Under the pieces are notes generated by a model, which had not been told where the DNA came from, did no database searches, and saw nothing but the letters and a program-made list of their open reading frames with translations. Positions 1,584-36,874 of a DNA stretch of 36,874 bases are shown piece by piece. Source of the DNA: Roseomonas aerilata DSM 19363. GTDB taxonomy: Bacteria; Pseudomonadota; Alphaproteobacteria; Acetobacterales; Acetobacteraceae. Position numbers and translations under genes: made by a program. The stretch spans positions 1-36,874 of the forward strand of contig NZ_JONP01000034.1 of NCBI RefSeq assembly GCF_000711725.1, given 5' to 3'. Every line of letters begins with the position of its first letter. Within the stretch, counting starts at the first letter, position 1.

Positions 1584-1687
1584 CAGATCCCGAGCCCGGC
1601 GGGTCATCCGGGCAAAGCGGCCGAGCGGGCGCGCCAGCGAAGCATTCCCGCCCGGCCTTAACAGCCACACCAGCTCAGGAGGCCAGA

Positions 1688-2080
1688 ATGGCATCCGCGA
1701 TCCATAGCACCCTGCAGGCCGAGGGCAGAAGAAGAGGCGCGGGCTTTATCCCCGCCGTGATGACGCCTGAGCTGCGGGCCGAGATCCGCAACAGGGCAGA
1801 AAACCTCATGGACGAGGCGCGCGCCGCCCTGGATGGCGCGACCTACCTCATCAACCTTCTGGACGCCGCCGATCGTCCGGTTATCGACCTCGAGCCAAAC
1901 GCGGACGGCGAGGCCGAGCCGGACGAGGCAAGCGCCCAGCCCGTCACCCTCTCCCCCGACCGCGTGCCGGTCCTCACCTACCGCCCGAGCGTCCGGCAGC
2001 AGCGCGCCGCCTATCGGTGCAACGGCGATCCCGTCCCCACCAACCTGCGCCGCGGCATGTTCGGGAGTGCTCGGGCATGA
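1688..2080 (+). CDS. Unknown 130-residue protein
   Basis: The ATG at 1688 is preceded by AGGAGG at 1677-1682, a strong ribosome-binding site. The central region PELRAEIRNRAENLMDEARAALDGATYLINLLDAADRP is helical. An acidic stretch follows (NADGEAEPDEASAQ), and then a basic C-terminus (YRPSVRQQRAAYRCNG). Its stop overlaps the next start (ATGA at 2077-2080). The function is unknown; composition suggests a soluble cytoplasmic protein. Confidence 0.6.
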   Translation: MASAIHSTLQAEGRRRGAGFIPAVMTPELRAEIRNRAENLMDEARAALDGATYLINLLDAADRPVIDLEPNADGEAEPDEASAQPVTLSPDRVPVLTYRPSVRQQRAAYRCNGDPVPTNLRRGMFGSARA

Positions 2081-2535
2081 ACCGCACCTTCCGTGCTCTG
2101 CCCCAAGCGCCCCGTGAGGTTCCTCCGCGCAAGCCGTCGCCGTCCGTGGTGGTGGCCGTGAAGGTGCCACCCCGGCGCGGCTTCCTGGGTATCCTGGCAG
2201 CCGTAGCAGTGACGCCAGCGGCAGCGACGATTGCTCCCTCCCCTGACGCTGATCTCATCCGGATCTGCGAGGCGCACCCGGCCATCCTCAAAGCCCTCGA
2301 TAAGCACGGCTCGGGCGAGGACGATTGCCCTTTCTGGCTGGCTTATGTGCGCAGCCGCGACGCCATCCATACCGCCGTCCCCATGACGTTGGCAGGCATG
2401 ATCGCCAAGGCTCGTGCAGCTAAGGCAGAGGCATTCAATTCGGAGAGCGGCACGGAGATCCCGCACGGCACCCCCGGCGAGACCTGGGGCTGGGACATCG
2501 TGAACGACCTTCTGCGTCTGGAGGGCATGCTGTGA
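2077..2535 (+). CDS. Unknown 152-residue protein with Tat-like N-terminus
   Basis: I placed the start at ATG 2077, which overlaps the upstream stop as ATGA; a longer frame from 2017 would overlap the upstream gene by 64 bases. Residues 31-50 read PPRRGFLGILAAVAVTPAAA. This is a twin-arginine motif followed by a hydrophobic stretch and small residues, like a Tat signal or a single membrane anchor. The remainder (ADLIRICEAHPAILKALDKH...GWDIVNDLLRLEGML) is helical. It is followed by a second gene with a comparable N-terminus. An export role is inferred; the function is unknown. Confidence 0.6.
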   Translation: MNRTFRALPQAPREVPPRKPSPSVVVAVKVPPRRGFLGILAAVAVTPAAATIAPSPDADLIRICEAHPAILKALDKHGSGEDDCPFWLAYVRSRDAIHTAVPMTLAGMIAKARAAKAEAFNSESGTEIPHGTPGETWGWDIVNDLLRLEGML

Positions 2536-2903
2536 GCCGCCCGTCCCGCCGCGGGGTTCTGGGCGGCCTTGCTGCTCTGGCCGCCTGCGCCGCCTACATG
2601 ACAATGGAGACCGCCTACAACGCTGCATTCCGCCAGCAGTGTGACGCCGAAGAAGCCGGCAACAAGGCGGAGGAGCGCAGGCTGGACGCCGTACAGCATG
2701 CCCTTGCCGTAGAGCAGGAGGAGCCGCTCGGCGTCATCATCAAGACCATGGCGACTACGCCGGCCGGCAGAGCTGCCAAGGCGGCAGTGGCGATGACGCT
2801 GGTGCAGTCCACACTGGCCGGGGAGCCAATGTCGAAGGAAGACGCGCTGATCTGGAGCTTGGCCGAGGATCTGGCGGGCAAGCCGTTGGTGCCACCGTCC
2901 TGA
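2532..2903 (+). CDS. Unknown 123-residue protein with Tat-like N-terminus
   Basis: It starts at GTG 2532 overlapping the preceding TGA (GTGA). Residues 4-21 (PSRRGVLGGLAALAACAA) form a twin-arginine plus hydrophobic segment, as in the upstream gene. A charged helical region (CDAEEAGNKAEERRLDAVQHALAVEQEE) and a C-terminal helix-rich tail follow. The paired Tat-like N-termini in adjacent genes suggest two related exported or membrane-attached proteins. It is the last gene of the operon; a hairpin follows at 2943-2972. The function is unknown. Confidence 0.6.
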   Translation: MSRPSRRGVLGGLAALAACAAYMTMETAYNAAFRQQCDAEEAGNKAEERRLDAVQHALAVEQEEPLGVIIKTMATTPAGRAAKAAVAMTLVQSTLAGEPMSKEDALIWSLAEDLAGKPLVPPS

Positions 2904-2942
2904 TAGACTGAGGCACTTCTGCGGAAAAGGGAGACAGTTAGA

Positions 2943-2981
2943 AGGGCCGCCGGGTTCACACCGCGCGGCCCTCAGCGTTTT
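2943..2981 (+). terminator. Hairpin terminator between convergent genes
   Basis: AGGGCCGC at 2943-2950 pairs with GCGGCCCT at 2965-2972, giving an 8-bp GC stem with a 14-base loop. CAGCGTTTT follows. It sits between the end of the 693-2903 operon and the stop of the convergent gene at 2986. Confidence 0.6.
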
Positions 2982-2985
2982 GCGG

Positions 2986-3546
2986 CTATCTCTTGCCGAG
3001 CAGCACTGCCAAACAACGGATCATTCCGTGTAAGCCAAGCGGGGCTTTCCCTGACATAGGGAAGACCACTGTGCGCCCGTCTGGATTGCGGATGACGATG
3101 CGTTCGCTAGCAGCGGAGAGCATTCCGAAAGCCTCTCGACCGCCGCTCTCTTCTTCACGGAAATGGGCCATGGAATTTTCAATGGCCTCACCCACCGCTG
3201 TCACTTCGAACGGCTCTCTGCGATCTACACGCGCTTGAAGTCGAACCTTCTGACCGGCTCCGAAGTTCCACCCGGGAACGGTAATCCTTACGGATCTACC
3301 CATACCCTCTACGCAAAGCATTCCTATGGATGCGCCAGGCACAGTGCCGCGGAGTACGGTACCCATGATCAGGACCTGCCAGCGATCGTCTATCTCATCC
3401 GCCCGTTCCTCGTAATACCATTCCATACCTGCATCATCTCGTGCCACTTCTTCGACCGGTTGGCGCGCCGGTTGAGCGTTGGCATTGCCTAGTAGAAGTG
3501 TCGAAATTGGAAGCAGGGCTACCAGGGCAGTGGCGAGGACGTTCAT
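2986..3546 (-). CDS. Secreted protein of unknown function (186 residues)
   Basis: The N-terminus MNVLATALVALLPISTLLLGNANAQP is a clear Sec signal peptide with a likely cut after ANA. The mature part is mostly strand-like (WQVLIMGTVLRGTVPGASIGMLCVEG, VRITVPGW, KVRLQARVDRREPFEVTAVG), as in small periplasmic beta-sandwich proteins that measure or bind something in the envelope. It ends with a GLHGMIRCLAVLLGKR tail. The family pattern (GML-C near the middle and MIRCL near the end) is seen in unknown exported alphaproteobacterial proteins. It stands alone, convergent with the upstream operon. The function is not known. Confidence 0.7.
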   Translation of the reverse strand: MNVLATALVALLPISTLLLGNANAQPARQPVEEVARDDAGMEWYYEERADEIDDRWQVLIMGTVLRGTVPGASIGMLCVEGMGRSVRITVPGWNFGAGQKVRLQARVDRREPFEVTAVGEAIENSMAHFREEESGGREAFGMLSAASERIVIRNPDGRTVVFPMSGKAPLGLHGMIRCLAVLLGKR

Positions 3547-3708
3547 GAAGTGAAGCTATCTGGCCCGTAACGCTAATAGCTAGTCAGAACGTAAGTGTGA
3601 CGGCGCCGAGGACGAGCGCCATCAGACCTGCTCCACGCCGGGCAACGCCATGCGTGTGTCCAAGCCAGCGCCGGAGCGCGCCTGCCCCTACAGTGCTATT
3701 CCAGGTCT

Positions 3709-3924
3709 ATGCCCTCCGACGCACCAACCACACACAAGCCCCGCATCGTGAAGCCTGCCAACGGCGAGAGCGGACCGGTCTACGACTATCGCGGCGCCGT
3801 CATCTTCTCGAACGAGAAGGGCACCGTCTTCAACTTCAGCCTGCAGGGCTTCCCGCACGGGCTTAACGGCTTCTGGGGCGGCATTGGGCATATTAGGGAG
3901 GTGGTTCGCTTGGTCGATGCCTAG
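3709..3924 (+). CDS. Unknown 71-residue protein
   Basis: A small soluble protein read from ATG 3709 (MPSDAPTTHKPRIVKPANGE). It contains the segment YDYRGAVIFSNEKGTVFNFSLQGFPHGLNGFWGGIGHIRE. The aromatic, strand-like middle with coding-like codon use supports a gene. The ribosome-binding site is weak (CAGG 7 bases upstream). No family is recognised. Confidence 0.45.
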   Translation: MPSDAPTTHKPRIVKPANGESGPVYDYRGAVIFSNEKGTVFNFSLQGFPHGLNGFWGGIGHIREVVRLVDA

Positions 3925-4371
3925 CTCGACACAGGGCGCCTACCAGCACCGTATGTGCTCGGGAGGTGAGGGGCGCTGGCTAGGCACCTCCACGTAGCGG
4001 CCAGCGGGTGACGCCTCTCGTTGCAGCGCCTTCAGCTTGACAAAGGCTTGCTCGATTGAGTTTGGGCCGGGCTGAATGGGGAAAGGTAAAAAAGGTCGAT
4101 GCTCGTGCTCCGGATCGCCTCGCGAACACCCGCGACCTTGTGGGCGGGAGGGTAGCCCGAGGCTCAGGTGTGTCGATAAAAGCAGTCCGAACTGGGTGTT
4201 GTTTTTCGGTGGATTGCCTCTTGATGGAAAAAATTACCTGCCATGTTGATTTTTAGGATGCTCAAAGTTGAGGGGAGCCAACCAAAGCGTTAATCGGGTT
4301 ACCTCATGAACTTGGACGAGCTGAGTAAACTTGAGTTCGATTTAACGATAAAAGCCATTTAGGAGAAGACG
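3925..4371. other. Gap with one possible leader peptide
   Basis: I see no convincing gene. GC content falls sharply from about 4170. A possible 18-residue peptide runs from ATG 4306 to TAG 4360-4362 (MNLDELSKLEFDLTIKAI), directly upstream of the AGGAG at 4361-4365 that serves the next gene. It could be a coupled leader peptide or the remnant of a truncated gene. Confidence 0.3.
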
Positions 4372-11891: not shown

Positions 11892-12920
11892 TCAGAAGCG
11901 GAAGGAGGCGCTGAAAGCGCCGAAGGACTGGCGACCGCGCTGGCCGTAGAACTCCTCGCTGCGCAGGACCTGGGTGTAGGCAAAACGCACTCCGCGCCAC
12001 AGCACCGCGACACCGGCCTGGGCATCCCCCACGAAGGGGCGCTTGTCCACGCTCGGGCTGTCGCGGAAAGTGTTGCCGTCGAGGAAGATGTCGCGAGCCA
12101 CGGCCCGACCCTCCACCCCGCCGAAGATGTACCAGCCGAACTCCTGTCGCGGCTGAAAGAAGCCAGAACCGGCCAACGCCGGGCGAATGCGAACCGGGCC
12201 CCAATCAGCCTCCAGCCCTTGACCAATTCGCAGCGAGCCGCCAGCCGCGACGTAGGTCTGCACGTTCCCCAGCGCCACCGCCGCCACTGGGATGGCCTCG
12301 GCCTGCACGCCGCCAAGGCTGCCAAGTGGGACGCGCCAGCGTCGCTCCAGCAAGGCGGTTAGCGCCAGCTCATCCTTCAGCTGACGGTCCCAGCCATTGG
12401 CTCTGCGGACGTTGATGAGGTCGTGGTAGTTGTTCTGCACAAACTCGCCGCCTGCTGAGGGGCCGATTACGCCGATCTGCACTTCCAACAGCGTCTGAGT
12501 GCGCTCAGTACTGCGGCTGAGGCTGGCTGCCCCATAGAGATAGCCGGCATACGGGCGATCGCGCGGGTCGGGGACACGCCGGTCCGTATCCTGCGGCGTG
12601 TAGATGTTCTGGCCAAGGGACACGCCCCAGCGCAGATTTCCGGGACCAAGAAGGAAGTCGAGCCGCTCGTCCAGCCCAGCCAGCGGGCGGGGCAGGTTGG
12701 CTGAGGGGGACTGCCATGTGAGCAGCAAGCCATTGGTGTAGTAGCGGTCGCTGCCGCCGAAGAGGTCGTTCTCGACGGTCGCGCTGAGGGTGCCCTGCCA
12801 ATCCGGAAGTTCCTGGCCGGCGCCAGTTCTGACGGGAGTAAGTGCCTGACCCTCCGCCGTGACAGGCGAGGCCAAAGCCAGAAGAAGAGCTAGGGCTGAC
12901 GGCAGAGCAGACTTCGGCAA
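11892..12920 (-). CDS. lpxR: LpxR-family lipid A 3'-O-deacylase (outer-membrane beta-barrel)
   Basis: It removes the 3'-linked acyloxyacyl chain of lipid A at the outer membrane, which reduces endotoxin recognition in the known family. The start TTG 12920 follows AGGAA by 7 bases and begins a signal peptide (LPKSALPSALALLLALASPVTAEGQA); upstream codons also stay open to GTG 13001. About residues 47-67 carry the family signature ATVENDLFGGSDRYYTNGL with the Asn-Asp active-site pair. The NNYHDLIN segment supplies the catalytic His near residue 166, and DRPYAGYLYG is conserved. Strands end in FGAFSASFRF, with the terminal Phe of outer-membrane barrels. The length of 342 residues is normal. Plasmid carriage suggests an accessory envelope trait. 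Confidence 0.88.
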   Translation of the reverse strand: MPKSALPSALALLLALASPVTAEGQALTPVRTGAGQELPDWQGTLSATVENDLFGGSDRYYTNGLLLTWQSPSANLPRPLAGLDERLDFLLGPGNLRWGVSLGQNIYTPQDTDRRVPDPRDRPYAGYLYGAASLSRSTERTQTLLEVQIGVIGPSAGGEFVQNNYHDLINVRRANGWDRQLKDELALTALLERRWRVPLGSLGGVQAEAIPVAAVALGNVQTYVAAGGSLRIGQGLEADWGPVRIRPALAGSGFFQPRQEFGWYIFGGVEGRAVARDIFLDGNTFRDSPSVDKRPFVGDAQAGVAVLWRGVRFAYTQVLRSEEFYGQRGRQSFGAFSASFRF

Positions 12921-13351
12921 AGCAATGTTCCTGGGGTTCGATGGCGGCGTGCTGGTATCGGCGGCCCTCCGATGCGGGAAACCAAGCCTTCGGACAAGCA
13001 CGCTTGAAAACTTTCAGGCAGCCTGCAGCAAAGCCCTCTACCCCCTCATTTTCGGCCCTTTTTGAGGGCGGGAAGTTGCCACGGGGCTCTCACGGCAAAA
13101 TCCCCGCCACCCTACTGGCTGAGGCAGCGGCGACGGACCTACACACCCACCGCGGATCCACTTGCGAACCTGCCGCGCGATCTGGCGAGCCTCGGCGCCT
13201 TCGCGGCTGAAATGCCCGTGGCGGAAGTTGCCGTGCCTCACCGGCTTGGGCGCCTCCACCGGCCGACGCAGTGCGACATAGCGGGCCCAGCCCGAGGGCA
13301 GGTTCCGACCAAACAAGTGGTGTCTCACCCTGAGATTTCGCCGTTCAGTTC
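12921..13351. other. Gap between the lpxR-like gene and the replication operon
   Basis: No convincing gene. The upper part (12921-13001) is an open extension of the lpxR frame and may be 5' leader. The rest is GC-rich with no clear repeat. The replication operon above ends at 13352, so it should contain that operon's terminator and the lpxR promoter, but I could not identify either with confidence. Confidence 0.35.
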
Positions 13352-13950: not shown

Positions 13951-16900
13951 TCAGGTGATCCAGTCACGGGAGGGACACGATGCGGCCCGGCTCTGTGCAC
14001 GGGGCCAGTCGCCATCATCTCCACGTCCTCCAACGCCTCCTCCGCAGCCTCTGGCACGCGGATAGGGCGAGGAGCGGGGCCCATACCCTCGCCCGAGGGC
14101 GCTACCGGCTCTGGCGGGGACTCTGGCGGGTTGAGGCGGTGGCGTGGGGTTAGGCGGATCCGGCGGTGGCTCAGCCGGCGTCAGCTCGAACGCCTGCACC
14201 CGGCCAATCAGGGCCTCAAGTGCCTCCCGCCCCCGAACCTGCGGGACCACGGCATCGGACCAGCGGCCTCTAAGCCCCTTCCTGTACCGGGCGAGGTGGA
14301 AGGTTTTGAAACCCCCCGACCGCTTATATATACTATATATAAGGCTTTGGGGGGTTTCAAAACGAACCGCAGGGTTCTCCAGGAACCTCTCCGCCGCCTT
14401 GGCCGACCGCCACAGGTCCGGCCGGGCGATCGACATATCCGCTGGGGCGAGGGGCATGGCCCGACCGAACAGCGCAGCCTCCGCCACCGCGACCTGCAGC
14501 CGGTTCGGGCGGTACTGGTTCCAGCTCGGCGCTTCCTGGACGGTGATGGGTAGGGCCAGCGCTGCCAGCACCACCACCCGCACGGGGGCGTCCGCCGCGC
14601 GTCGCACCCCACGAGCGCGTCCGATCGCCTGCAGGACGGCTCCTTCGGTCACGGACCAGCGGTAGGCCTCAACCAGGGGGTCCGAGTGGCGCGGCTGCCG
14701 ATCGATGCTGCGTCCGGCCCCGTCCGCCATGCGGAGGGCGGCAGTGACGGTTGGCCACCAGCTCCCCGGAGCGTCGGGGACGGTCTCCACCGCCTTACCC
14801 CCGATTACCTCGGCCATTCGCTCGCCAGCCAGGCGATGCATGGCAGGGCGGCCGATACAAACCAGCGCCGCCACCTTGGCCCAGCTATTCATGCCGGTGA
14901 CGTTCCCGTGGTGCGCCAGGTGCAGCACCTTGCCGGAGGGCCAGCGCCAAGTGGTCGGGTCGCCCGCCTTCGCGCCTTCCGGCACGGGATTGCAGACAGC
15001 ACCGCGGAACGTTAGCTCGTCCTGCAACAGGATCTCGATGGCGAGCTGCGCGACGGCGAGGACCTCGCCATCGGCGCGCGCCACCTCAACCATCAGCGCA
15101 TCCACCACGTCCCGGAGGTTCGTTTCCTTCTTCAGCCAGGACCGGCCCATCTCCTGATCGGCCACATGCACGACGTGCTGATGAGGGGCGGCAATCTCCG
15201 TGTCCTCCACCTCGAGATCTGGCGCCCAATGCCGCAGCACCTCCGGCCGCCCGGTCGCGTCCAGGAAGAGCATGGGCCCTGCCCACCCATGGTGAATGTC
15301 AGCACGCCAGGCGAAGCGGATAGCGGGCCCGGTGCCCTGGTCGCGGCCGAGATCGGCATCCGGTGCCAGCGAGAGGTTCACGCTGCGCGCGTCGCCCCCT
15401 TCCAGAAACGCTGCGATCATTTCGCCCAACATGGGACGGAGCTTTGAGAAGCCGACTGCAGCTGCATCCTCAAAGGCGGCAAGCGCCTGCGCCCTGCTAG
15501 TCCCTTCCGCAATCTTCACCCGGGGCTTCATCAGCCATTCGTGGGCCGCCCATTCCTTAGCCTGGGCAATGACGTTCGCGATGGCGGCGCCCCCCAGAGC
15601 CTCGCGGAACAACGCACCTTCCGGAAGCTGGGCGAGCGCACTGGCGAACTGCCGGCGGCGGTGTAGCAGCACCTCCCGATCCTGATTGCGGACAGCCCCA
15701 GTTTCCTCCGACTGCAGCGCCGAGAGCGCGAGCTGCACCGTGGAGCTAAGGCCGGCGACGCCCGATCCGGTAATGTCTTCGTCAATGATGACGACCGACG
15801 GTGCGACGGGATGCTTGTGCCCGTCCTTGATCTCGCTCGGCCATGCCCGAAAGGGACGGAGGAACAGCGACTGATGCGGGATAACCCAGACGTCCGCGTT
15901 CTTGCCGGTCCGCGCCTGCAGGAGGTAGGCGCAGCCGGCCGCCAGGGGGCAGGCCACGCATCCGGCAGACGATGCCTGTCCGGCCGCCTTCGCCGCCTTC
16001 GGCAGATCCAGATCCTCGCACATCATGGCGCCGGGCTTGGCCGGGTTGGCTGCCTCCATGCCGCGCCACACCGCCACCTTAAGATGCGGCCACCGCGCTC
16101 GGATATCGGCCGCGACCTGATCGCCAAGAGCATGGCGGGGATGGGCAAACACGGCAGGGCCGCGCCCGACAGACCGGCCGGCGTCCAGCAGGGTCGGCAG
16201 TGCGTCGATCGCGTCGAACGTCTTGCCGCCGCCCACCGTCTTGCGGTGCAGAACCTGGGGGCATTCGCCGGCCGCCACCCGACCAGCAAAGCCCTTCAAC
16301 CTGTCCGCGCTGCGCCGCCCGGCGTCGGAGAGCGGGATTGAATTGTCGGGGTAGGTCGGCGGGATCGGCTGCTCCGCCTTCGCCGCGGCTTCTGCCGCCT
16401 GGGCTGCGCGCTTGTCCTGCTCTCGGCCGACAACCCACGCAATCCGCGCGTCGAGCATCTGCTCGCTGGCATAGCGCCGCATCTCGGCCTGGCTACGCGC
16501 GCCAGGGTCGGCATTCTCAATGCGGGCAGTGATGGCCGCCTTGAGGGCTTCGGTGTCCGGCCCCGGCCAGTTGGTGGAGATGAAAGCGGCGATCGCGCGG
16601 TTGATCGGCTCGTGGAATCCTTCGGCGCCGCCGATCGCGTCCAGCCAGCCGTGAAAGCCCAAGCTGGCTCCGCCGCTCTCGCCCGGCGTCCATGCCGTCC
16701 GGCGCGACGGCTCCGGGATATCCAGCAACGCGGTGTCGCTATCACCCTCAACGAGTATCGTGCGACGCCCAAGAAGCGGATCGCGCAATCCCTCACCGAA
16801 GACGGGACCGGCAGTGTAATGCGGCTGAACAGTCCGCAGGGTCGCGGGGTCCACGAACTTGAAGCCAACGCGGGCATTGATGGCCGCCGCCCAACGGTCC

Positions 16901-17514
16901 AACTGCGCGCCATCTGCCGCCTCTGCCAGCCAGAACCAGACGTGCGCCCCAATGCCGCCGCCCTTCTTTAAGACGCCGCTCCAACGGGGCGGCATGCCGG
17001 CGGCCTGCTCCGCCTCTGCCTGTTCATCGAGACCGGCGCTGGAGCTGAACTGGACGATAGCCGAAACGCTCTCCAGCTCCGGGACATGGGAGGCCACCAG
17101 ATCAACCAGGATCTGCGCCACCTCGCCCGGATCGGAGATCAGGCTGGCGCTGGCGGGGAGCTTGATCCCGTCGAGGTCCAGCATGATCCAATGCAGCGGC
17201 TTGTCATCGAAGTTGCCGCCGTTCTCGGTCTTCATCCGGCGGGTGCTGTTGAGGTCGGTAGAATCGTTAGGGACGCCGCGGATTGCGCACGCGGTCGGAT
17301 CGCGCTCAATCCGCCGAAGAACGGAAAGCAGGTCATGAACCCCGCCCACCGGGGCAAGCTCAACACGGAAGGTGCGCGCGTTCGAGTAGTCGCGCTTCAC
17401 CACAAGTCCGTTGGGCGCGATGCTGAAGGACTTCGCCATCAGCATCTTCCCGACTGTCCGCAGGATCGAGAGGTTTTCGGTCAATCTCTGCCCCCCAATC
17501 GGTCGGGGGGCCAT
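13951..17514 (-). CDS. Fused primase (AEP-like)-helicase plasmid replication protein
   Basis: About 1,187 residues from ATG 17514 (GAGGT 9 bases upstream); TTG 17484, overlapping the upstream stop as TTGA, is an alternative. The N-terminal domain looks like an archaeo-eukaryotic-type primase: LDLDG at about 112-116 (two Asp), GGIGAHVWFWL with His about 191, and FVDPATLRTV with Asp about 222. The second half is a helicase: GGGKT at about 427-431, IIDED at about 575-579, MLFLDATGRPEVL and QAIGRARGVRR (motif VI) near 961. Four Cys (about 498, 518, 521, 527) between Walker A and B recall the Fe-S or zinc insert of XPD/DinG helicases. The C-terminus is Pro-rich. It carries a large palindrome at about residues 1051-1071. 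It would prime and unwind plasmid DNA. Confidence 0.8.
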   Translation of the reverse strand: MAPRPIGGQRLTENLSILRTVGKMLMAKSFSIAPNGLVVKRDYSNARTFRVELAPVGGVHDLLSVLRRIERDPTACAIRGVPNDSTDLNSTRRMKTENGGNFDDKPLHWIMLDLDGIKLPASASLISDPGEVAQILVDLVASHVPELESVSAIVQFSSSAGLDEQAEAEQAAGMPPRWSGVLKKGGGIGAHVWFWLAEAADGAQLDRWAAAINARVGFKFVDPATLRTVQPHYTAGPVFGEGLRDPLLGRRTILVEGDSDTALLDIPEPSRRTAWTPGESGGASLGFHGWLDAIGGAEGFHEPINRAIAAFISTNWPGPDTEALKAAITARIENADPGARSQAEMRRYASEQMLDARIAWVVGREQDKRAAQAAEAAAKAEQPIPPTYPDNSIPLSDAGRRSADRLKGFAGRVAAGECPQVLHRKTVGGGKTFDAIDALPTLLDAGRSVGRGPAVFAHPRHALGDQVAADIRARWPHLKVAVWRGMEAANPAKPGAMMCEDLDLPKAAKAAGQASSAGCVACPLAAGCAYLLQARTGKNADVWVIPHQSLFLRPFRAWPSEIKDGHKHPVAPSVVIIDEDITGSGVAGLSSTVQLALSALQSEETGAVRNQDREVLLHRRRQFASALAQLPEGALFREALGGAAIANVIAQAKEWAAHEWLMKPRVKIAEGTSRAQALAAFEDAAAVGFSKLRPMLGEMIAAFLEGGDARSVNLSLAPDADLGRDQGTGPAIRFAWRADIHHGWAGPMLFLDATGRPEVLRHWAPDLEVEDTEIAAPHQHVVHVADQEMGRSWLKKETNLRDVVDALMVEVARADGEVLAVAQLAIEILLQDELTFRGAVCNPVPEGAKAGDPTTWRWPSGKVLHLAHHGNVTGMNSWAKVAALVCIGRPAMHRLAGERMAEVIGGKAVETVPDAPGSWWPTVTAALRMADGAGRSIDRQPRHSDPLVEAYRWSVTEGAVLQAIGRARGVRRAADAPVRVVVLAALALPITVQEAPSWNQYRPNRLQVAVAEAALFGRAMPLAPADMSIARPDLWRSAKAAERFLENPAVRFETPQSLIYSIYKRSGGFKTFHLARYRKGLRGRWSDAVVPQVRGREALEALIGRVQAFELTPAEPPPDPPNPTPPPQPARVPARAGSALGRGYGPRSSPYPRARGCGGGVGGRGDDGDWPRAQSRAASCPSRDWIT
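14303..14363. repeat. 61-bp concentric palindrome inside the primase-helicase gene
   Basis: Outer arms GTTTTGAAACCCCCC (14303-14317) and GGGGGGTTTCAAAAC (14349-14363) match over 15 bases. Centred on the same base (14333) is an inner perfect palindrome, CTTATATATA-C-TATATATAAG (14323-14343). Only five positions on each side between the two do not pair. The AT-rich core in a GC-rich gene could melt or extrude as a cruciform. Both strands therefore encode similar peptides here. It may be an origin, a primase start site or a regulator-binding dyad. Confidence 0.85.
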
Positions 17515-17750
17515 AGTCGCGATACCTCTGCGGTGGCGGCGTCCAGGGTGGCCGGGGCCAAGGCGAACATGGGCCACAATTGCCCGTTCCGGTCGGGGCG
17601 TTCCGGGCAACGGAGAACCACCCGGCCGGAGGCGTCGCGTCTGGCTTCAATTCCGCGAAGGTGCGCGCCCGGGATACGCACGTCGATAAAGGCGAAGTCG
17701 GGCCGGATGGCCTTGACGGTGATGCGCTCGATCAGCGGAGAAGGGCTCAT
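17481..17750 (-). CDS. Unknown 89-residue protein before the primase-helicase gene
   Basis: It starts at ATG 17750, overlapping the upstream stop (ATGA). It begins MSPSPLIERITVKAIRPDFAFIDVRIPGAHLRGIEARRD and continues GRVVLRCPERPDRNGQLWPMFAL. The first half is strand-rich. The APATLDAATAEVSRLWPPDR end is helical. Sequences with this VxLxCPxxxxxGxxWPxFxL pattern accompany plasmid primase genes, but I know no function. The next gene starts within or over its last codons, so translation is coupled to the replication protein. Confidence 0.6.
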   Translation of the reverse strand: MSPSPLIERITVKAIRPDFAFIDVRIPGAHLRGIEARRDASGRVVLRCPERPDRNGQLWPMFALAPATLDAATAEVSRLWPPDRLGGRD

Positions 17751-20340: not shown

Positions 20341-22182
20341 TCAGGCCATCATAGCTTGGTCGGCGCGGGCCTGGGCGAGGTCGCGTGCGAGCCGGTTGAG
20401 ATCAGCCCTGACGCCGGCAAGCCTCGCCGCTTCGGCAGTGATCATGCCATCGAGCTTGGCAAGCGCAGCACTAATCGTGACCTCCAGAGACTTGCCCTTG
20501 GCCCGGACTGCCGCCAGGGCCGGCGTACTGGCGGCTGGTGTGCCCGCTGCCGCCGGGGCTTTGAAGCCGGCCTCACAGGCCTTTCGCCAAGCGAGGACGC
20601 GCTTGCTCAGGACCGGGCCGAAGCCAGGTACCGCTCCCAGCGCCCTACTGGTGACATCCGCCGCCGTATCTATGCCGGCGCCCTCAAGGGCAGCAATGCG
20701 GACCCGGCCGACTCCTTCAATCGAGGCGGAAGCAATCGGAAAAGCTTCAAGAAAGGTGCGCAAAGCGGCGCTGCTCGCGCGACCCGCGGCACCGGTAATA
20801 ACGTCATCTACCTCTCTGCGCAGGTTGGCGAGGCGATCGCATTGGGAGTCGATCTCACGAGCCAGAGTCGCGATTGCATCCCTATGCAGCACAATTAGCC
20901 AGTTGGCCAACGCAGCTTGGTAAGCACGCGCCGCATTCTCGATGGCGCCGTCTCGCCTTGCGAGTTCCTTCGCCCAGACTCCCTCGCTTATGCCGACGAC
21001 GTTGAGAATACGACCGAAGAAGCCGGGCCGTTCGACGCCCGGCGGAAGTGGCCTGCCGATTACGCCAGACGTGTGATCGCGTTCAGAGGGGGGAGGGCCC
21101 GGCGTCTGGGGCAGCAGCCTTCGCCCGAGTTCGGCGCGTAATTGCGCAGCCAGCGCCAAGAAATCCGGCAATGCAAGCACCGAAGCGCCGCCGCGCGGAG
21201 CGAACATTAACGCTCCGGTGCTCCCCTCGATAACGCAGATTGGGCAGGGCCCTGGCAGATGAGCGTGCTGTGGGTTAGCACGGCAGGAGACGAGTTGCGT
21301 TGCATAGCTGTCGAGGGCCTCAACCCAGGCGCTCACCTTATGGCGGCCTTCAGAATCCCCCCTGGGCCCGAAGGTACGCTCGAACAGCTCGCGCAGACGA
21401 CCGTCAAGAGCGGTGAACGGCAGCGTGTTCGGCGGCTGACAAATCCCACGCGCGGCCGCCTCCGAACTCCAGGCAAAGCGGTGCTGCGCTATCGCCTCGC
21501 CAAGCGAAGGGGGAGCGCCATGCAGCGGCACGCCCGCAAAAGGGTGGCGGTTGAAGAACAACAGCTGGAAAACGAGCACTGCGAGGCCGAAGCAGTCATG
21601 AGTGCGAAAGCGGTGGCGGCCGCGCAGCGCAACTCCTTGCAGCTCCGGCGGCTGATACTGCTCGACGCCAACGTCGCAGGTGAGGACCACCCCGTCGGCC
21701 ACGATTTGAAAGCTGTCGCAATCCACCAGCCCGACAGTCGCGCGCTGGTCCACAAGCGCCAGGCGCTCGTTCACGTCGCCAATCACCGCGCCCGCCGCAT
21801 GGACCGTAGCGAAGGCCCGCGCCAGGTTAGCAGCGACGGCAACTAGAAATCGATAATCAGCCTGCGGAAAGATCTTCTTGCGCTCGGCGGGCGCGCTAAC
21901 AGCATGGAGTTCCCGTCGGTTCTCGAAGCGGGGCATGACGAAGCCCGCAATTCGTGGCCCGTCCTGCACAACAGCGACTGGCCAAGCGGCTCCGGCTGGG
22001 CGCGCTTCCGGTGGCATTGCCGCCATAGCCTGAAGCTTCTGGGCGCGCACCGGGTCTGGAGCGGCATGGTAAATTTTGGCCACATAGCCGGGCATGCTCA
22101 GCAACTCATGCACGGCCCCCTCGGCGCCCTTAGCGATCTCACGGCCGATCTGGAGGGGGTTGCCCAAGACGACCAGCGACAT
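20341..22182 (-). CDS. Protein kinase-helix-hairpin-helix protein (YegI-like)
   Basis: A 613-residue protein whose ATG 22182 overlaps the phosphatase stop (TGATG). The N-terminal region is a kinase-like lobe: a glycine-rich loop (IAKGAEGAVHEL), Lys36 in VAKIYH, a catalytic loop IGDVNERLALVD and a metal motif VDCDSF (Asp154). The Asn normally five residues after the catalytic-loop Asp136 is Leu141. A CPxC pair lies near residue 315. The C-terminal region contains EGVGRVRIAALEGAGIDTAADV followed by GAVPGFGPVLSKRVLAWR, a tandem helix-hairpin-helix that binds DNA. E. coli YegI has a comparable kinase. With a PP2C phosphatase and vWA protein it forms the TerY-P-type triad. Confidence 0.82.
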   Translation of the reverse strand: MSLVVLGNPLQIGREIAKGAEGAVHELLSMPGYVAKIYHAAPDPVRAQKLQAMAAMPPEARPAGAAWPVAVVQDGPRIAGFVMPRFENRRELHAVSAPAERKKIFPQADYRFLVAVAANLARAFATVHAAGAVIGDVNERLALVDQRATVGLVDCDSFQIVADGVVLTCDVGVEQYQPPELQGVALRGRHRFRTHDCFGLAVLVFQLLFFNRHPFAGVPLHGAPPSLGEAIAQHRFAWSSEAAARGICQPPNTLPFTALDGRLRELFERTFGPRGDSEGRHKVSAWVEALDSYATQLVSCRANPQHAHLPGPCPICVIEGSTGALMFAPRGGASVLALPDFLALAAQLRAELGRRLLPQTPGPPPSERDHTSGVIGRPLPPGVERPGFFGRILNVVGISEGVWAKELARRDGAIENAARAYQAALANWLIVLHRDAIATLAREIDSQCDRLANLRREVDDVITGAAGRASSAALRTFLEAFPIASASIEGVGRVRIAALEGAGIDTAADVTSRALGAVPGFGPVLSKRVLAWRKACEAGFKAPAAAGTPAASTPALAAVRAKGKSLEVTISAALAKLDGMITAEAARLAGVRADLNRLARDLAQARADQAMMA

Positions 22183-22988
22183 CAGGTGGCCAATTGCCTA
22201 GAACAGAGGATTAGAGTCTTGTCGTCATCCGTTCGCGCGCAGACCTGGGGTGAGGCGAGGAAGGCCTCCAGCCAAGCCTCATGGATGGTGGCGGTGCCGG
22301 TCCCCGGCGCCGCGCGGAGGCCTGCGAAGACATGCTCGAAAAAGCGTGCATGCGGCTCTCCGGTCGCCATCTTCACGGCCAGATGCTCGATACCGTCCGT
22401 CAGCAACGCAAACTCGGCAATCGGGCCGGCGACGCGAGCGACCGAAATGCGTTGGGCTACGTCGCCACGAGTGACAAAGATCGTTTCATTGGCGAATTCG
22501 CCGCGCTGTGGAGAAAGCGCGAGGCGCCAGACTGCCGTCTCGGCGTCGCGCATGCGATAGACAATCGCTCCATCGCCAATCTGAAGAAAGAAGGCGGCGT
22601 GGTCGGCAACGATCGCGCCCAACATGGTGCAGGCGTAGGCTGAAAGCGGCTCCTCCGACTCCTTGGCAAGCTCGGCTATGCGGGCGCGAACATCCTCAAG
22701 CGTGTCGAGAGCGAAGCCATCATGCAAGAAGTCGAGCGACTGCCCCAGTTGCGCCACCGCCAACTGGGCGCACTCGAAGAAGGTATAACAGGCCTGCCGC
22801 GCGCCGTTGAGCGACCGCTTTGCGCTGCCGGCCCCATCGGCCGCTGCCGCAATGACTACTTCGGAGCCTGACGAGGCAGCCACCAGGTTAACGGCGTGGA
22901 AATCCTGGCACTCGGTGCCAGTGCGCAGATGCGAGGTGCCGATCACGCTGCTGGCGGCGTGGCGCCACCCGGCAGAGCGTTTTGTCAC
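22182..22988 (-). CDS. PP2C-family Ser/Thr phosphatase (YegK-like)
   Basis: A 268-residue PP2C phosphatase from GTG 22988, which overlaps the vWA stop (GTGA). Recognised motifs are [15 protein letters not shown] (metal-binding Asp), [19 protein letters not shown] and the C-terminal [10 protein letters not shown]. All metal ligands are present, so it should be active. It would reverse phosphorylation by the adjacent kinase. Such stand-alone PP2C domains form a triad with a vWA protein and a kinase. It overlaps both neighbours, so it is translated with them in a fixed ratio. Cytosolic. Confidence 0.88.
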
Positions 22989-23671
22989 ACCGAGGCCCAG
23001 CCGGAGGGCGGCGGCAGGGCAACATTGGTGCCTGGCTGCGACTGGGAGACTGCTGCAAGAGACTGCGAGAGCCAGACAAATAGATCACCGAATTTCAAGC
23101 CGTCCAGCTTGATTGGCGCACGCACGGTAATCTCTGCTAGCCGACTCATGTCCGCGCCCTGCACACCTATCGCGAAGAACGCTATGCGCTTGGCATCCTC
23201 CTCGGTCCGCACGCGTTGCGCCGCGTTCTGCCACAGATCTGTCGGGGCACCATCTGTGATGAGGAAGATCCACGGCCGATAGTACGCGATACCATGCGCC
23301 TTATATTCCTCCTTACGGCGAGAAAGGAGATTGAGCGCCGTCTCGATTGCGCGCCCCATCGGCGTGTCCCCGCCAGCAATAAGTTCGGGTGGGTCGAAGC
23401 GATCGGCTGTGACAAAGCCGACATCCGTCGTTACGGGTCCGAAGGATATGATTGAAATCTCGACACGGCGCGCCGCTAGCGCGTCCTGACACAGCTCGTC
23501 CCGCAGGCGCTTTAGGCCGGCATTGAGTTGGCTAAGTGGCTCGCCGGCCATGGAACCGGAGCGATCCAGCAGGAGCACGACGGGGCAGCGCGGGTCGGGG
23601 TTCTCGGCAAAAATGCTAGCGTCTTCGGTAAAGCCGCCGGGGGTGTAGGGCTTCTGCTCAAAATCGCTCAT
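22985..23671 (-). CDS. von Willebrand A domain protein (YegL/TerY-like)
   Basis: A 228-residue stand-alone vWA domain. ATG 23671 is used, with GTG 23674 one codon upstream. The metal-ion-dependent adhesion site is intact: DRSGSM (DxSxS, residues 36-41), the Thr in GGDTPMGRA and Asp in [10 protein letters not shown]. TerY and YegL are of this type and are thought to recruit or present substrates to the kinase and phosphatase. It is first in the triad, so its promoter lies between 23672 and 23848. The surrounding operon supports function. Whether it confers tellurite, stress or phage resistance cannot be told from sequence. Confidence 0.88.
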
Positions 23672-23848
23672 CACTTTGTCCCATGCGTGCTTCGCCGGAT
23701 GTCGGCTGACGCTGCGTTATTTTGTGCTTTTCTTGCAATGGTTTCAATCTGATCTCTGTTGAAGACGCGGCAGATCGCATGCGGCCTACCAAGACGCTGC
23801 GCCTGGGGCACGCTAGTGGCAGTAACCAAGCATGATGGAGGCTGAGGG

Positions 23849-27176: not shown

Positions 27177-28115
27177 TCACTCAGGAGGCGAAGCTTTGCT
27201 AGGCTCTAGTGCGCCCCCGATTGCACATAGCCCAACCGAGACCAGGCGTTTCCTTACCGGGGGTGGCGACTGCCAAAGGGTCATGCCCCGCCCGTCTGTC
27301 TCAAAGCGGGCATCAGGGTAGGCGGCATGGATCTGCGGGAGGAGGCCGCTGAAGAACTCTCGGAAGCGACGTATCCGGGTGTACCCCTGGCCAAACTGCT
27401 CTTGCAGATTCGCCCACGGGATCAGCTGCGGCTTGCCCTCAGGCATCCGGTGGAGCCGCTGGGCTAGCCAGCAGTAGATGTCGAGCGCCACGGCCGAATG
27501 GGCGAGAGCAGCGATGGCCCGTTCATCGAGCGGGACGGCGAAGCGCTGCAAACTGTCGAAGTAGTCGAGTGAGAGCTTGAGCGTCGACGGCCAAAGGATG
27601 CGCTGGCTCTCATCCTTCTCGAACCAAAGATTGAAGGCGCCCACAACCTTTGTGTCTATCTGAACAGCGCTATCCCCATGACTGATGCCGAGGCGAAACT
27701 GTGCGGCTGCAAGAGCTGTCAGCTGCTCCTTCAGCATCTTTGCCTGGCGACCGTCCTGCGTGCGGCCCATCAGGCGACGGAAGAAGGCGGTCATTGTGTC
27801 TTCGACGGGGATAACCGGTGACTGGCGTCGTACTGCCTCACCATTTAGGTGCATGAGCAGGAGTCGCGCCTTGGGTCCATAGGGAAGCCCAAGCTGCTCG
27901 AAATGACCGGTGCGGGGGTTGAGAGCCTTGCCCGCTTCAACCAGCAACGTCGCTTTGCCCTGCCGACGCTCCCACACCAGCAGGTCGTCCGGTGGACGGG
28001 CTGCCGGAAGCGAAGTTTGAGCCAGGATGGAGTGTTGAAAGGCCAGCTCATCGGCCGGGGTCTCAGCAATGTCGTTGGAGAGGTCGACCAACCGCTGCTG
28101 TATCACGCTAACCAT
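27177..28115 (-). CDS. repA: RepA replication initiator (RepA_C / plasmid-encoded RepA family)
   Basis: A 312-residue initiator from ATG 28115 (a TTG lies one codon earlier). Family features are LLVWERRQGKATLLVEAG, GLPYGPKARLLLMHLNGEAVRRQSPVIPVEDTMTAFFRRLMG, VVGAFNLWFEKDESQRILWPSTLKLSLDYFDSLQRFAVPLDERAI and DIYCWLAQRLHRMPEGKPQLIPWANLQEQFG, all typical of RepA_C. It binds iterons to open the origin; five CGCCCCCGATTGCACAT-like iterons surround it. One iteron (27212-27228) is inside the last codons (LCAIGGAL), another begins 3 bases past the stop. It is probably the main initiator. Confidence 0.9.
   Translation of the reverse strand: MVSVIQQRLVDLSNDIAETPADELAFQHSILAQTSLPAARPPDDLLVWERRQGKATLLVEAGKALNPRTGHFEQLGLPYGPKARLLLMHLNGEAVRRQSPVIPVEDTMTAFFRRLMGRTQDGRQAKMLKEQLTALAAAQFRLGISHGDSAVQIDTKVVGAFNLWFEKDESQRILWPSTLKLSLDYFDSLQRFAVPLDERAIAALAHSAVALDIYCWLAQRLHRMPEGKPQLIPWANLQEQFGQGYTRIRRFREFFSGLLPQIHAAYPDARFETDGRGMTLWQSPPPVRKRLVSVGLCAIGGALEPSKASPPE
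27212..27228 (+). repeat. Iteron 2, inside the repA 3' end
   Basis: An exact match to iteron 1, 54 bases away. It overlaps repA codons near the C-terminus (VGLCAIGGAL), so its sequence serves both as code and as a candidate RepA-binding site. Confidence 0.85.
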
Positions 28116-28237
28116 CAAGGCCCCCGCCCACCCTCAATGCACTCTTACTCATGATTACGATTCCCACCAGCAGGATTAGTGCACAGGGACGGGGGCGCCA
28201 ACTACAGGGTAGCTAGAGGAATCTACTAATAGGCTTG

Positions 28238-30660: not shown

Positions 30661-30841
30661 TTGCTTACGTCAGTAGAAATCGAACGACGATGGAGAACGA
30701 GCTCGAGCCCAGCTGCCGCGGTGCCCACCCATTGTACCAGGATGGAGCAGTCCACCGGCATGCCCTGGCGCCCGATAGCCCCGCACAGCCTCTGCAGCCA
30801 TCATTTGCAGTTGGAGAGAAGTGACGTTATCTCTAACTAAA

Positions 30842-30855
30842 TTGATGATCCATCA
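30842..30855. promoter_or_regulatory. Dyad TTGATGATCCATCA, copy 2 (recombinase leader)
   Basis: Identical over 14 bases to copy 1 (271-284). It ends at the first base of the recombinase ribosome-binding site AGGAG (30855-30859). Binding there would block translation initiation or transcription of the recombinase. Confidence 0.55.
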
Positions 30856-30868
30856 GGAGCCGTGCTCG

Positions 30869-31795
30869 ATGGCTAAACAGTCCGTGCCAGTGATGAAGAT
30901 GGCTCCCAGCAATGCTGCAGGGGTGGTCGTCGCCTCCGTCCCAGCCCTCCCCGCCTCGCCCGTCCAGGCGACCAGCGACGATCACCTCATCCAGCTCTGG
31001 CTGCATGAACGGTCGCGCCACACGGTTCGGGCTTACGAGGCCGACGCCCGCGCCTTCCTCTCTCACGCCGCCAAGCCCCTGCAGGCCGTGACGCTGGGCG
31101 ACGTGCAGGCCTATGGCGGTAGCCTCGTCCACCTCGCCACCGCCACCCGCGCCAGGCGCCTCGGCGCGGTCAAGTCGCTCGTTGCCTTCGGCCACCGGCT
31201 CGGCTACCTCGCCTTCAACGTCGGCGCCTCCATCCGCCTCCCGGCAATCAAGGCGACGCTTGCGGAGCGGATTATAGGGGAGGGGGACGTGCTGGCCCTC
31301 CTTGCGCTCGAGCGGCAGCCCCGGGACAAGGCGTTGCTCTCCCTGCTCTACCGAGGCGGTCTCCGGATCTCGGAAGCGGTCGGGCTTCGCTGGCGGGATC
31401 TCGCCCTGCGATCGGACGAGGGCGGGCAGATCACCGTGTTCGGCAAGGGCGGCAAAACCCGGACGGTCCTCCTCTCCGCTAAGACGTGGAGCTTGCTGGA
31501 GACGATCCGGCCGAACACGGCCGCCTCTGATGCCCCGGTCTTCCTCTCCCGCGAGGGCAACCCCCTCAGCCCGCAGCAGGCCCACAACGTGGTGAAGCGT
31601 GCCGCGGCCCGCGCCGGCATCTCCCCTGCCCTCTCCGCCCACTGGCTCCGTCACGCGCACGCCAGCCACTCGCTCGACCGCGGCGCCAAGATCCACGTCG
31701 TCCAGGCGACTCTGGGACACTCGAACGTAGCCACCACGAGCCGGTACCTGCACGCGCGGCCGACGGAGAGCTCGTCGCTCTTTCTCCCTGAGTAG
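30869..31795 (+). CDS. Tyrosine recombinase (XerC/D-like)
   Basis: A 308-residue site-specific recombinase from ATG 30869; AGGAG is 9 bases upstream. A SAM-like core-binding domain (HLIQLWLHERSRHTVRAYEADARAFL...ATATRARRLGAVKSLVAFGHRLGYLAFNVG) is followed by the catalytic domain: Arg in YRGGLRISEAVGLRW, Lys in KGGKTR, HxxR in HWLRHAHASH, His in LGHSNVATT and nucleophile Tyr in TSRYLHA. All six catalytic positions are present. It may resolve plasmid multimers. The dyad shared with the partition cassette covers its leader, which is unusual. Confidence 0.92.
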   Translation: MAKQSVPVMKMAPSNAAGVVVASVPALPASPVQATSDDHLIQLWLHERSRHTVRAYEADARAFLSHAAKPLQAVTLGDVQAYGGSLVHLATATRARRLGAVKSLVAFGHRLGYLAFNVGASIRLPAIKATLAERIIGEGDVLALLALERQPRDKALLSLLYRGGLRISEAVGLRWRDLALRSDEGGQITVFGKGGKTRTVLLSAKTWSLLETIRPNTAASDAPVFLSREGNPLSPQQAHNVVKRAAARAGISPALSAHWLRHAHASHSLDRGAKIHVVQATLGHSNVATTSRYLHARPTESSSLFLPE

Positions 31796-36113: not shown

Positions 36114-36446
36114 TCACCGCTCCGCGTCGCGCTCCAGCTTCTCCCGGTTTTCCAGCACCAGATCCACAAGCACGGCCGAGACAGAGGGGCGCCCGCCCTC
36201 ACGCCCGGCCCGCTCCACCGCCACTCGCCGCAGCAGCATGAGCACGTCCTTGGGCACATGGATGGCCGTGGTCACATAGTCCGCGGTTGGCGTCGCAGGC
36301 GGTTCGGGGGCCGGGAGCACTACAGGCGCCGGGGCCGGTGCGGGGGCAGGTTCGGGCGCCCCCGGCGGCACGGCAGCCCCTTCAGCCGCAACCCGCTCGC
36401 TCGCCGCCTTAGCCGCCGCGATCAGGCTGCCTTTACGTCCTGCCAC
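36114..36446 (-). CDS. Small ParB-like centromere-binding / ribbon-helix-helix-type protein
   Basis: A 110-residue protein that starts at GTG 36446, overlapping the last 14 bases of parA. Such overlap is typical of the second gene of a partition cassette. The N-terminus is basic and alanine-rich (AGRKGSLIAAAKAASERVA), followed by a flexible Pro/Ala linker at about residues 34-62. The C-terminal segment is YVTTAIHVPKDVLMLLRRVAVERA...PSVSAVLVDLVLENREKL. A short strand (TTAIHVP) followed by two helices is the expected ribbon-helix-helix pattern. The likely role is binding a plasmid centromere and stimulating ParA. The family is inferred from order, size and secondary-structure pattern, not from a recognised signature. 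The dyad at 36058-36072 lies 42 bases beyond its stop. Confidence 0.7.
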   Translation of the reverse strand: MAGRKGSLIAAAKAASERVAAEGAAVPPGAPEPAPAPAPAPVVLPAPEPPATPTADYVTTAIHVPKDVLMLLRRVAVERAGREGGRPSVSAVLVDLVLENREKLERDAER

Positions 36447-36874
36447 TCTTCTTCTCCCTCCGCACCACGCGCTCAACTACGGCCGCCAGGGATGCAATTT
36501 CCTGGTGTCCCACCGAACGAGGCGCGAAGGCCCCAACCCATTCCCCGGCCGTCGCGCTGTCCACGAAAGCCGCCCGCATCCCTACCGCAGGCGCCACTGG
36601 CTCGCCCATCTCGTGCAAGGCCGCCTCGATTTCTCGGCCGGTAGAGGTGCGCCGGTCCACCCTGGAGGGGATCAGCAGCGCGGCCGGCCTTCCGGCCCCT
36701 CTCGCCTCCCTGGCTTCCCGAAGCAGATCCAGCGCCTTTGCCGCGGCGCGAAGATCCAGGCCGGAAGGGGAGACCGGGACAAGGAACAGGTCCGCCACGA
36801 TCAGCGCCGCGGCCGTCGCCTCGCCCGTGTTCGGCGGCAAGTCGATCACCACGAGGTCCGCATTAGCCCCCTGC
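36433..36874 (-). CDS. parA: ParA partition ATPase, C-terminal part (split by window ends)
   Basis: C-terminal half of the ParA ATPase whose N-terminus is at 1-226. The reading frame is open to the right edge and continues as GANADLVVIDLPPNTG, the Walker B-like strand, then the switch-like VPVSPSGLDL and the typical PSRVDRRTSTGREIEAAL segment of short plasmid ParA proteins. It ends SGRT-TAA at 36433. The next gene starts at GTG 36446 inside its last codons, so the two are translationally coupled. Directly abutting the edges gives a frame offset (two bases plus a multiple of three missing), consistent with an imperfectly closed circular contig rather than a natural pseudogene. The two parts together account for a normal-length protein. 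Confidence 0.9.
   Translation of the reverse strand, partial: QGANADLVVIDLPPNTGEATAAALIVADLFLVPVSPSGLDLRAAAKALDLLREAREARGAGRPAALLIPSRVDRRTSTGREIEAALHEMGEPVAPAVGMRAAFVDSATAGEWVGAFAPRSVGHQEIASLAAVVERVVRREKKSGRT

Follow-up and report, generated by a model that had tools for sequence, protein, structure and literature searches.

In the repABC plasmids of Alphaproteobacteria, oriV lies inside repC, where silent recoding has shown that an AT-rich region is needed, and the initiator acts in cis (PMC3155836). The lambda origin, ori-lambda, lies mid-gene in the initiator gene O (PMC3985674). In herpes simplex virus (HSV) oriS, a dimeric SF2 helicase binds inverted boxes that flank an AT-rich spacer (PMC12543377). 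The Sulfolobus primase-helicase (orf904) plasmid pRN1 depends on a stem-loop of 100 bp at the site proposed as its origin (PMC3869888). Here, we analyzed a 61-bp dyad within a rep gene of Roseomonas aerilata DSM 19363. The stretch of DNA under study, hereafter the window, is the entire 36,874-bp contig NZ_JONP01000034.1 of a 6.43-Mb genome. Comparison with relatives suggests that this palindrome is a cis-acting duplex-DNA site, an initiator-binding dyad with an AT-rich melting core, and that it is, on balance, probably the replication origin of replicons relying on a primase-helicase Rep.

The dyad occupies positions 14303-14363 (no strand assigned). It is made up of a left outer half-site, GTTTTGAAACCCCCC (15 bp, 14303-14317), a 5-bp spacer (14318-14322), an AT-rich left inner half-site, CTTATATATA (10 bp, 14323-14332), one central base, and the mirror half, i.e., the right inner half-site (10 bp, 14334-14343), the partner spacer (14344-14348), and the right outer half-site (15 bp, 14349-14363). 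The outer arms are complementary throughout, and each spacer pairs at 1 of its 5 positions. An earlier note, made from the sequence alone, had claimed a palindrome here with 15-bp outer and 10-bp AT-rich inner arms sharing one center; it is real, lies at that place, and stands well above chance. The repeat finder returned two 30-nt arms, 1 nt apart and 87% complementary (26/30 pairs), which corrects the paired bases from the 50/60 of that note to 52/60. With a simple arm score of 18, the dyad is the top palindrome of the window (runner-up, 12), and ten shuffles of the window, preserving base composition only, gave best palindromes of 9 to 12. Because the palindrome finder returns the best dyad per region, selection inflates the proportion of bases that pair; weight was placed instead on position, score relative to the base rate, covariation, and synonymous constraint.

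The host gene (13951-17610, minus strand; TTG start, true start uncertain) encodes a 1,219-aa protein with a primase-like N terminus, a helicase-like module, and a C-terminal region. Its description as a primase-helicase gene in the earlier note is borne out for the primase part, since the N terminus matches phage primase families (PHROG 16950; E = 2.1e-18); the helicase part is drawn from homology, with a DEAD match in one relative (2.4e-5) that falls under the Pfam curated cutoff. It is only the N-terminal part that matches phrog_3712, "replication origin binding." A Pfam scan of the window protein retrieved no family at E ≤ 1, and scans of five related replication proteins and one primase retrieved Toprim_3, DUF7146, weak DEAD or ResIII, and one weak stray match. 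The plasmid relative that scores best against the window protein is from Roseomonas. Judged by protein homology, the gene is a member of a nearly unannotated primase-helicase family in plasmids and prophages of Pseudomonadota. The helicase/C-terminal module of this family follows a separate Toprim primase gene in the prophage-like element G413 (L093, 8300-11775), is fused to a Toprim primase in p546-7 (L043, 7000-10350), and, in the window gene, is joined to a primase-like domain of another kind.

A search with the 400-aa C-terminal module of the window protein (14152-15351, minus strand), in which, by homology, the dyad encodes the linker between the conserved LW..A and Y[RQ]..G segments, found matches in 38 of 397 genomes of the family Acetobacteraceae. 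Thirty-three family matches, window included, were taken as loci, and 31 frames remained once L056 and L075, which end before the linker, were dropped. Family matches without a locus, records H30 and H43, the p1-AD2 gene (which ends before the linker), and L137 (broken frame) were left out, and L133, L138, and L140, repeats of loci already included, were not counted again. At the linker, 23 of the 31 frames (22 without the window) carry a dyad with a score of at least 13 and 4 score 9 to 12. Homologues that keep the gene and lack the palindrome, which the earlier note would have counted against a function, are a minority: 3/31 have no dyad, and 1/31 (L072, whose dyad is the same as that in p546-7) has the inner dyad only. 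Outside the listed linkers, 551,415 bp contained 15 palindromes scoring at least 13; 5 of these belong to the same element, as second copies, displaced copies, or copies newly added, and about 10 are unrelated. Palindromes other than the dyad never exceed 15 in the 45 rep genes compared, a set that includes the window and the near-duplicates L059/L060 and L072/p546-7.

Most of the relatives examined, many just 25 to 40% identical in protein, have a dyad of up to ~70 bp at the homologous spot. Its letters vary widely between family loci (GAGGAGTGTGAC..GTCACACTCCTC, GAGGTTGGGGAC..GTCCCCAACCTC, GATTTCGGGGAC..GTCCCCGAAATC, and GTTTTGAAACCCCCC..GGGGGGTTTCAAAAC, among others). The search for conserved structure in homologous genes, which the earlier note had proposed, thus came out strongly positive: the site is kept with compensating changes, and the peptide varies. 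Palindromic elements inserted in genes are known, and this one encodes a variable linker, as would be expected of an in-frame mobile palindromic repeat, similar to the RPE of Rickettsia, inserted in a tolerant stretch of the protein. This origin of the dyad is exceedingly improbable given one site maintained over great divergence with unrelated letters and arms that covary and do not decay. Moreover, a search of the 6.43-Mb genome carrying the window, the only genome searched for dispersed copies, revealed no second copy, just 14- to 15-bp chance matches.

The dyad extends to further samples, in which, as for the wider plasmids, linker placement was judged by eye from translations. In a class-wide sample, 10/385 genomes match (the window's own included), and each of the 8 other frames readable through the linker carries a linker dyad of at least 9 (25, 17, 13, 11, 11, 10, 9, and 9); L136 has a stronger palindrome (12) outside the linker. 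In a phylum-wide sample, 6/398 genomes match, including the window's own and one already seen. One genome from another class scores 24, another such genome has an imperfect dyad (8), one broken gene scores 9, and G638 has no dyad inside its rep gene. Rep-gene dyads score 26 in Bradyrhizobium pCB82_1, 19 in Skermanella pSR-5, 17 in Methylorubrum pCMU02, and 16 in both Rhodovastum and Loktanella, with weaker dyads in Agrobacterium pAt2 (11), Roseivivax (10), Roseomonas mucosa p6 (10), and Falsihalocynthiibacter (9). The shortened rep gene of R. mucosa plasmid p1-AD2 (L126, 1642-6410) spans 1642-4122, ends before the linker, and is directly followed by an IS21-type element. NZ_CP015609.1 (hits H27 and H30), labeled a Bacillus safensis plasmid, carries a rep resembling that of R. 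mucosa and is perhaps a mislabeled or contaminated record.

In the viral collection, contigs L108 and L111 carry a dyad within the rep frame, and a pattern built from one dyad class retrieved 3 contigs, the G413 contig among them. When the GGGG-type dyad was used as a DNA pattern, it picked out 4 viral contigs, with no Rep-type dyad among the top three palindromes of each. Scanning the viral and genome collections with peptide patterns recovered no relative, or the query's own contig only; a tblastn search of phage records with the G413 helicase gave no match, and the "replication origin binding" gene of one T5-like phage contains no palindrome of at least 9.

In the protein alignment (by eye for plasmids), the dyads fall between the helix-like conserved LW..A segment and the conserved Y[RQ]..G near the C terminus. 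With automatically found anchors, the dyad center is mostly 37 to 48 nt upstream of the Tyr anchor, with two frames at 62 to 64 nt; for the window itself, the anchor picked automatically landed inside the dyad. Codon phase of the center and the encoded peptide vary between lineages. By distance from the center in 26 distinct dyads, positions 7 to 13 and ≥17 are mostly paired, and positions 1 to 6 and 14 to 16 are often mismatched, the latter being a second variable zone to which the 5-bp spacers of the window correspond. Each arm is, by this comparison, two half-sites split by looser zones. Over 42 dyads, the AT content of the central 22 bp averages 73% and is never below 45%.

Arms that differ between lineages stay complementary to each other. 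L057 and L058 have identical spacers and centers, yet two mirrored changes separate them in both outer arms, which preserves the symmetry but replaces amino acids (T/S and R/H). Over 23 dyads of <75% identity, we counted 66 further pair types versus a shuffle mean of 38.9 (maximum, 48), a count that shares the best-dyad selection bias and includes an atypical palindrome of M. radiotolerans. In 12 close relatives, third-codon-position entropy is 0.0 in the inner half-sites (5/5 invariant) and 0.49 in the outer half-sites, with an intermediate 0.40 for the center; it rises to 0.74 in the 5-nt spacers and to 1.11 and 0.80 in the two flanks. The nearest relative, G001, from the same genus, has a module 81% identical over 399/400 query residues and a linker peptide of the same length; its third codon positions agree with the window at 17/21 sites in the dyad versus 24/39 and 24/40 in the flanks. 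Spacers stay asymmetric, which makes homogenization by template switching alone a poor fit, since that process should presumably even out spacers too.

The transcript of rep includes the dyad and could form a strong hairpin, raising the question of an RNA element that governs translation, processing, or decay of the message. Mismatches on the coding strand do not favor such an RNA, because G.T and A.C occur equally often (21 and 20 in 26 dyads; 35 and 40 of 203 in 42 dyads), and an Rfam search of the window gave 0 matches at the gathering score. In addition, the dyad of G638 lies beyond the rep stop codon, and a second copy in G413 is outside all open reading frames (ORFs) of ≥120 aa. An RNA hairpin is therefore very unlikely to be the functional form. 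Changing letters with complementary arms, synonymous constraint on the half-sites, varying codon phase, and lack of strand bias together indicate that the conserved object is, close to certainly, a duplex-DNA element and not the peptide, and that it is probably not an RNA hairpin.

Second and displaced copies bear on what such a duplex element might do. The related, prophage-like G413 and G221 carry a second dyad copy ~2 kb away, with exact 12-bp and 8-bp half-sites and different spacers and centers. In G638, where the rep linker is short, the best palindrome in 14 kb is a 54-bp dyad with a score of 13 and an AT core, found 297 bp downstream of the rep stop codon; this single case is consistent with a cis element that can be separated from the gene. 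The second copies that two elements carry outside the rep linker would also suit an operator or partition site, bound by Rep or another plasmid protein and serving rep repression, copy number, or centromere function and not the start of replication; a duplex dyad with no strand bias suits any dimeric binder. Also pointing this way are genes for a ParA family protein (pCMU02) and an AAA ATPase (p546-7), along with a subthreshold ParA-like match in the window. Yet a site so deep in the gene and close to its 3' end would be unusual for a repressor, and, the second copies excepted, no exact extra half-site was found in the elements probed. We consider an operator or partition role unlikely. The second copy of G413 also lies just upstream of genes read as putative terminase subunits, and a terminase small subunit is annotated beside rep in R. 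mucosa plasmids, as if the dyad were a pac- or cos-like packaging site of prophages left as a remnant in plasmids. Strong dyads in pCMU02 and pSR-5, which list no terminase, render this highly improbable.

The center is often asymmetric between inverted inner arms, an arrangement that a tyrosine recombinase might use as a recombination or resolution site, with the outer arms as accessory sites. Integrase or tyrosine recombinase genes are indeed found on the window (30821-31795), p546-7, pCMU02, and an R. mucosa plasmid. However, the rep frame reads through the site in nearly all copies, and the dyad accompanies the Rep module, no one recombinase having been shown to track with it; recombination is in our judgment a distinctly unlikely function. 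A hairpin-telomere version of this idea is disfavored. Telomere palindromes require a symmetric center, and no fixed one was found in 26 dyads, 10 to 16 of which are mismatched at positions 1 to 3; the gene runs through the site. Also, no ResT/TelK domain was detected in 27 genomes, where the telomere resolvase profile (PF16684) gave 0/27 matches at E ≤ 0.001, with 1 of 14 control genomes (Synechococcus elongatus) matched.

Against this background, the likeness of the dyad to described origins is partial. The predicted origin would, as in repABC plasmids, lie in the coding sequence of the initiator, here as a conserved dyad inside rep. The protein family is different, with no RepC match in the Pfam scans of the window protein, five relatives, and one primase. 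The place of the AT-rich region in repC is reported not to be conserved (PMC3155836), whereas the rep dyad is conserved in position and covaries. Lambda O binds four 19-bp iterons, in contrast to the single long quadripartite dyad in a primase-helicase gene described here, and probing with the half-sites of 14 elements revealed no lambda-type direct iterons. Inverted boxes flanking an AT-rich core, as in HSV oriS with UL9, are present in the dyad, a formal resemblance in the way of working with no homology shown. HSV oriS is located outside the helicase gene. N15-type RepA linear phage-plasmids share a large replication protein, and the N15 origin lies within repA. In N15 and PY54, however, repA contains no palindrome of at least 10, and the best palindrome in the 20-kb stretches scanned adjoins the protelomerase gene; N15 RepA is said to act only in cis (PMC3155836). 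The pRN1 stem-loop differs in lying 3' of the gene, with a rolling-circle mode proposed (PMC3869888). By the features tested, the dyad is not a member of the repABC-oriV, lambda, HSV oriS, or pRN1 systems. Literature searches, mostly at the level of titles and abstract beginnings and with subscription papers largely outside their scope, found no published account of this element.

Several observations weigh against an origin at the dyad. Three of the 31 family frames, L055, L076, and L077, have no dyad at the linker. G001 keeps the site with a degraded dyad (score 9), and its overall identity to the window is no higher in the dyad (47/61) than in the flanks (94/120 and 92/120). Agrobacterium fabrum has a weak dyad (score 7), the Microvirga and Komagataeibacter rep genes have none in the gene, and the M. 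radiotolerans palindrome is short (26 bp), GC-rich, and of another design. The displaced dyad of G638 is overlapped by mechanical ORFs, which leaves its noncoding status unproven. Exact half-sites of 14 elements occur only in their own dyads or the second dyads of G413 and G221, with no iteron array; some matches with 2 to 3 mismatches lie outside dyads, and the G001 probe is poor. A structure model (mean pLDDT, 40.5) was unusable. Cumulative GC skew of two replicons makes no turn at the dyads (~14.3 kb), the minimum being at ~18.6 kb in the window, which is not known to be circular, and at 18.5 kb in a 19.1-kb circle. Finally, a second replication-type gene, RepA_C (PF04796 profile match, 9e-15; 27177-28118, minus strand), lies on the window contig, so that the contig may have another replicon besides that of this Rep. 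On the supporting side, pCMU02, p546-7, and pSR-5 (covered to 50,000 of 53,768 bp) list no other Rep, a weak point since PLSDB gene tables are incomplete.

The window contig is plasmid-like and may carry two replicons; its ParA-like frame, below threshold, is at 36433-36873. Near rep, 11892-13001 encodes a homologue of the outer-membrane lipid A deacylase LpxR (PF09982; E = 2.8e-103), and neighboring minus-strand genes at 20341-23674 specify a kinase-like protein (subthreshold), a PP2C phosphatase, and a VWA protein. L092 (G076:C35), with 127-bp identical ends, is probably a 19,133-bp circle and carries rep and the dyad.

The earlier note had proposed that the palindrome might be an origin equipped with a melting core, a start signal for the primase, or the dyad of a regulator. 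A conserved DNA element is upheld by the compensating changes in homologous dyads, and an origin function is suggested by comparison, which documents position, symmetry, covariation, synonymous constraint, absence of strand bias, and one separation from the gene. These data would fit a primase start signal or an initiator site alike. Our confidence in the origin goes no further than probable because Rep binding and initiation are inferred, GC skew is unsupportive, and a RepA_C gene sits on the same contig. If the dyad is the origin, at least two Rep protomers would bind the inverted half-sites as a symmetric complex, the AT-rich middle would open, and the helicase and primase modules would then load. 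Binding, melting, and initiation would take place in a rep stretch that encodes a variable interdomain linker, a placement by which initiator and origin would travel as one cassette.

The dyad might even encode a turn of the C-terminal DNA-binding domain with which the initiator reads it, so that site and reader change together. This would explain why the outer arms vary freely between lineages and hardly ever between the two arms, and new origin specificities could arise in one step. The short linker and the dyad outside the gene in G638 speak against it, and we regard such coupling as speculative and distinctly improbable.

To conclude, if the dyad is an initiator-binding site and origin, it would define a replicon type for a widespread, barely annotated set of plasmids and prophages, found both in Alphaproteobacteria and outside this class. 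Origins could then be located by a simple computational finder, i.e., the best dyad ~44 nt upstream of the conserved Tyr codon, and an incompatibility code could perhaps be read from the half-sites. The family would also provide a clean natural case, with many covarying examples, of DNA-level selection overriding protein sequence within a gene.
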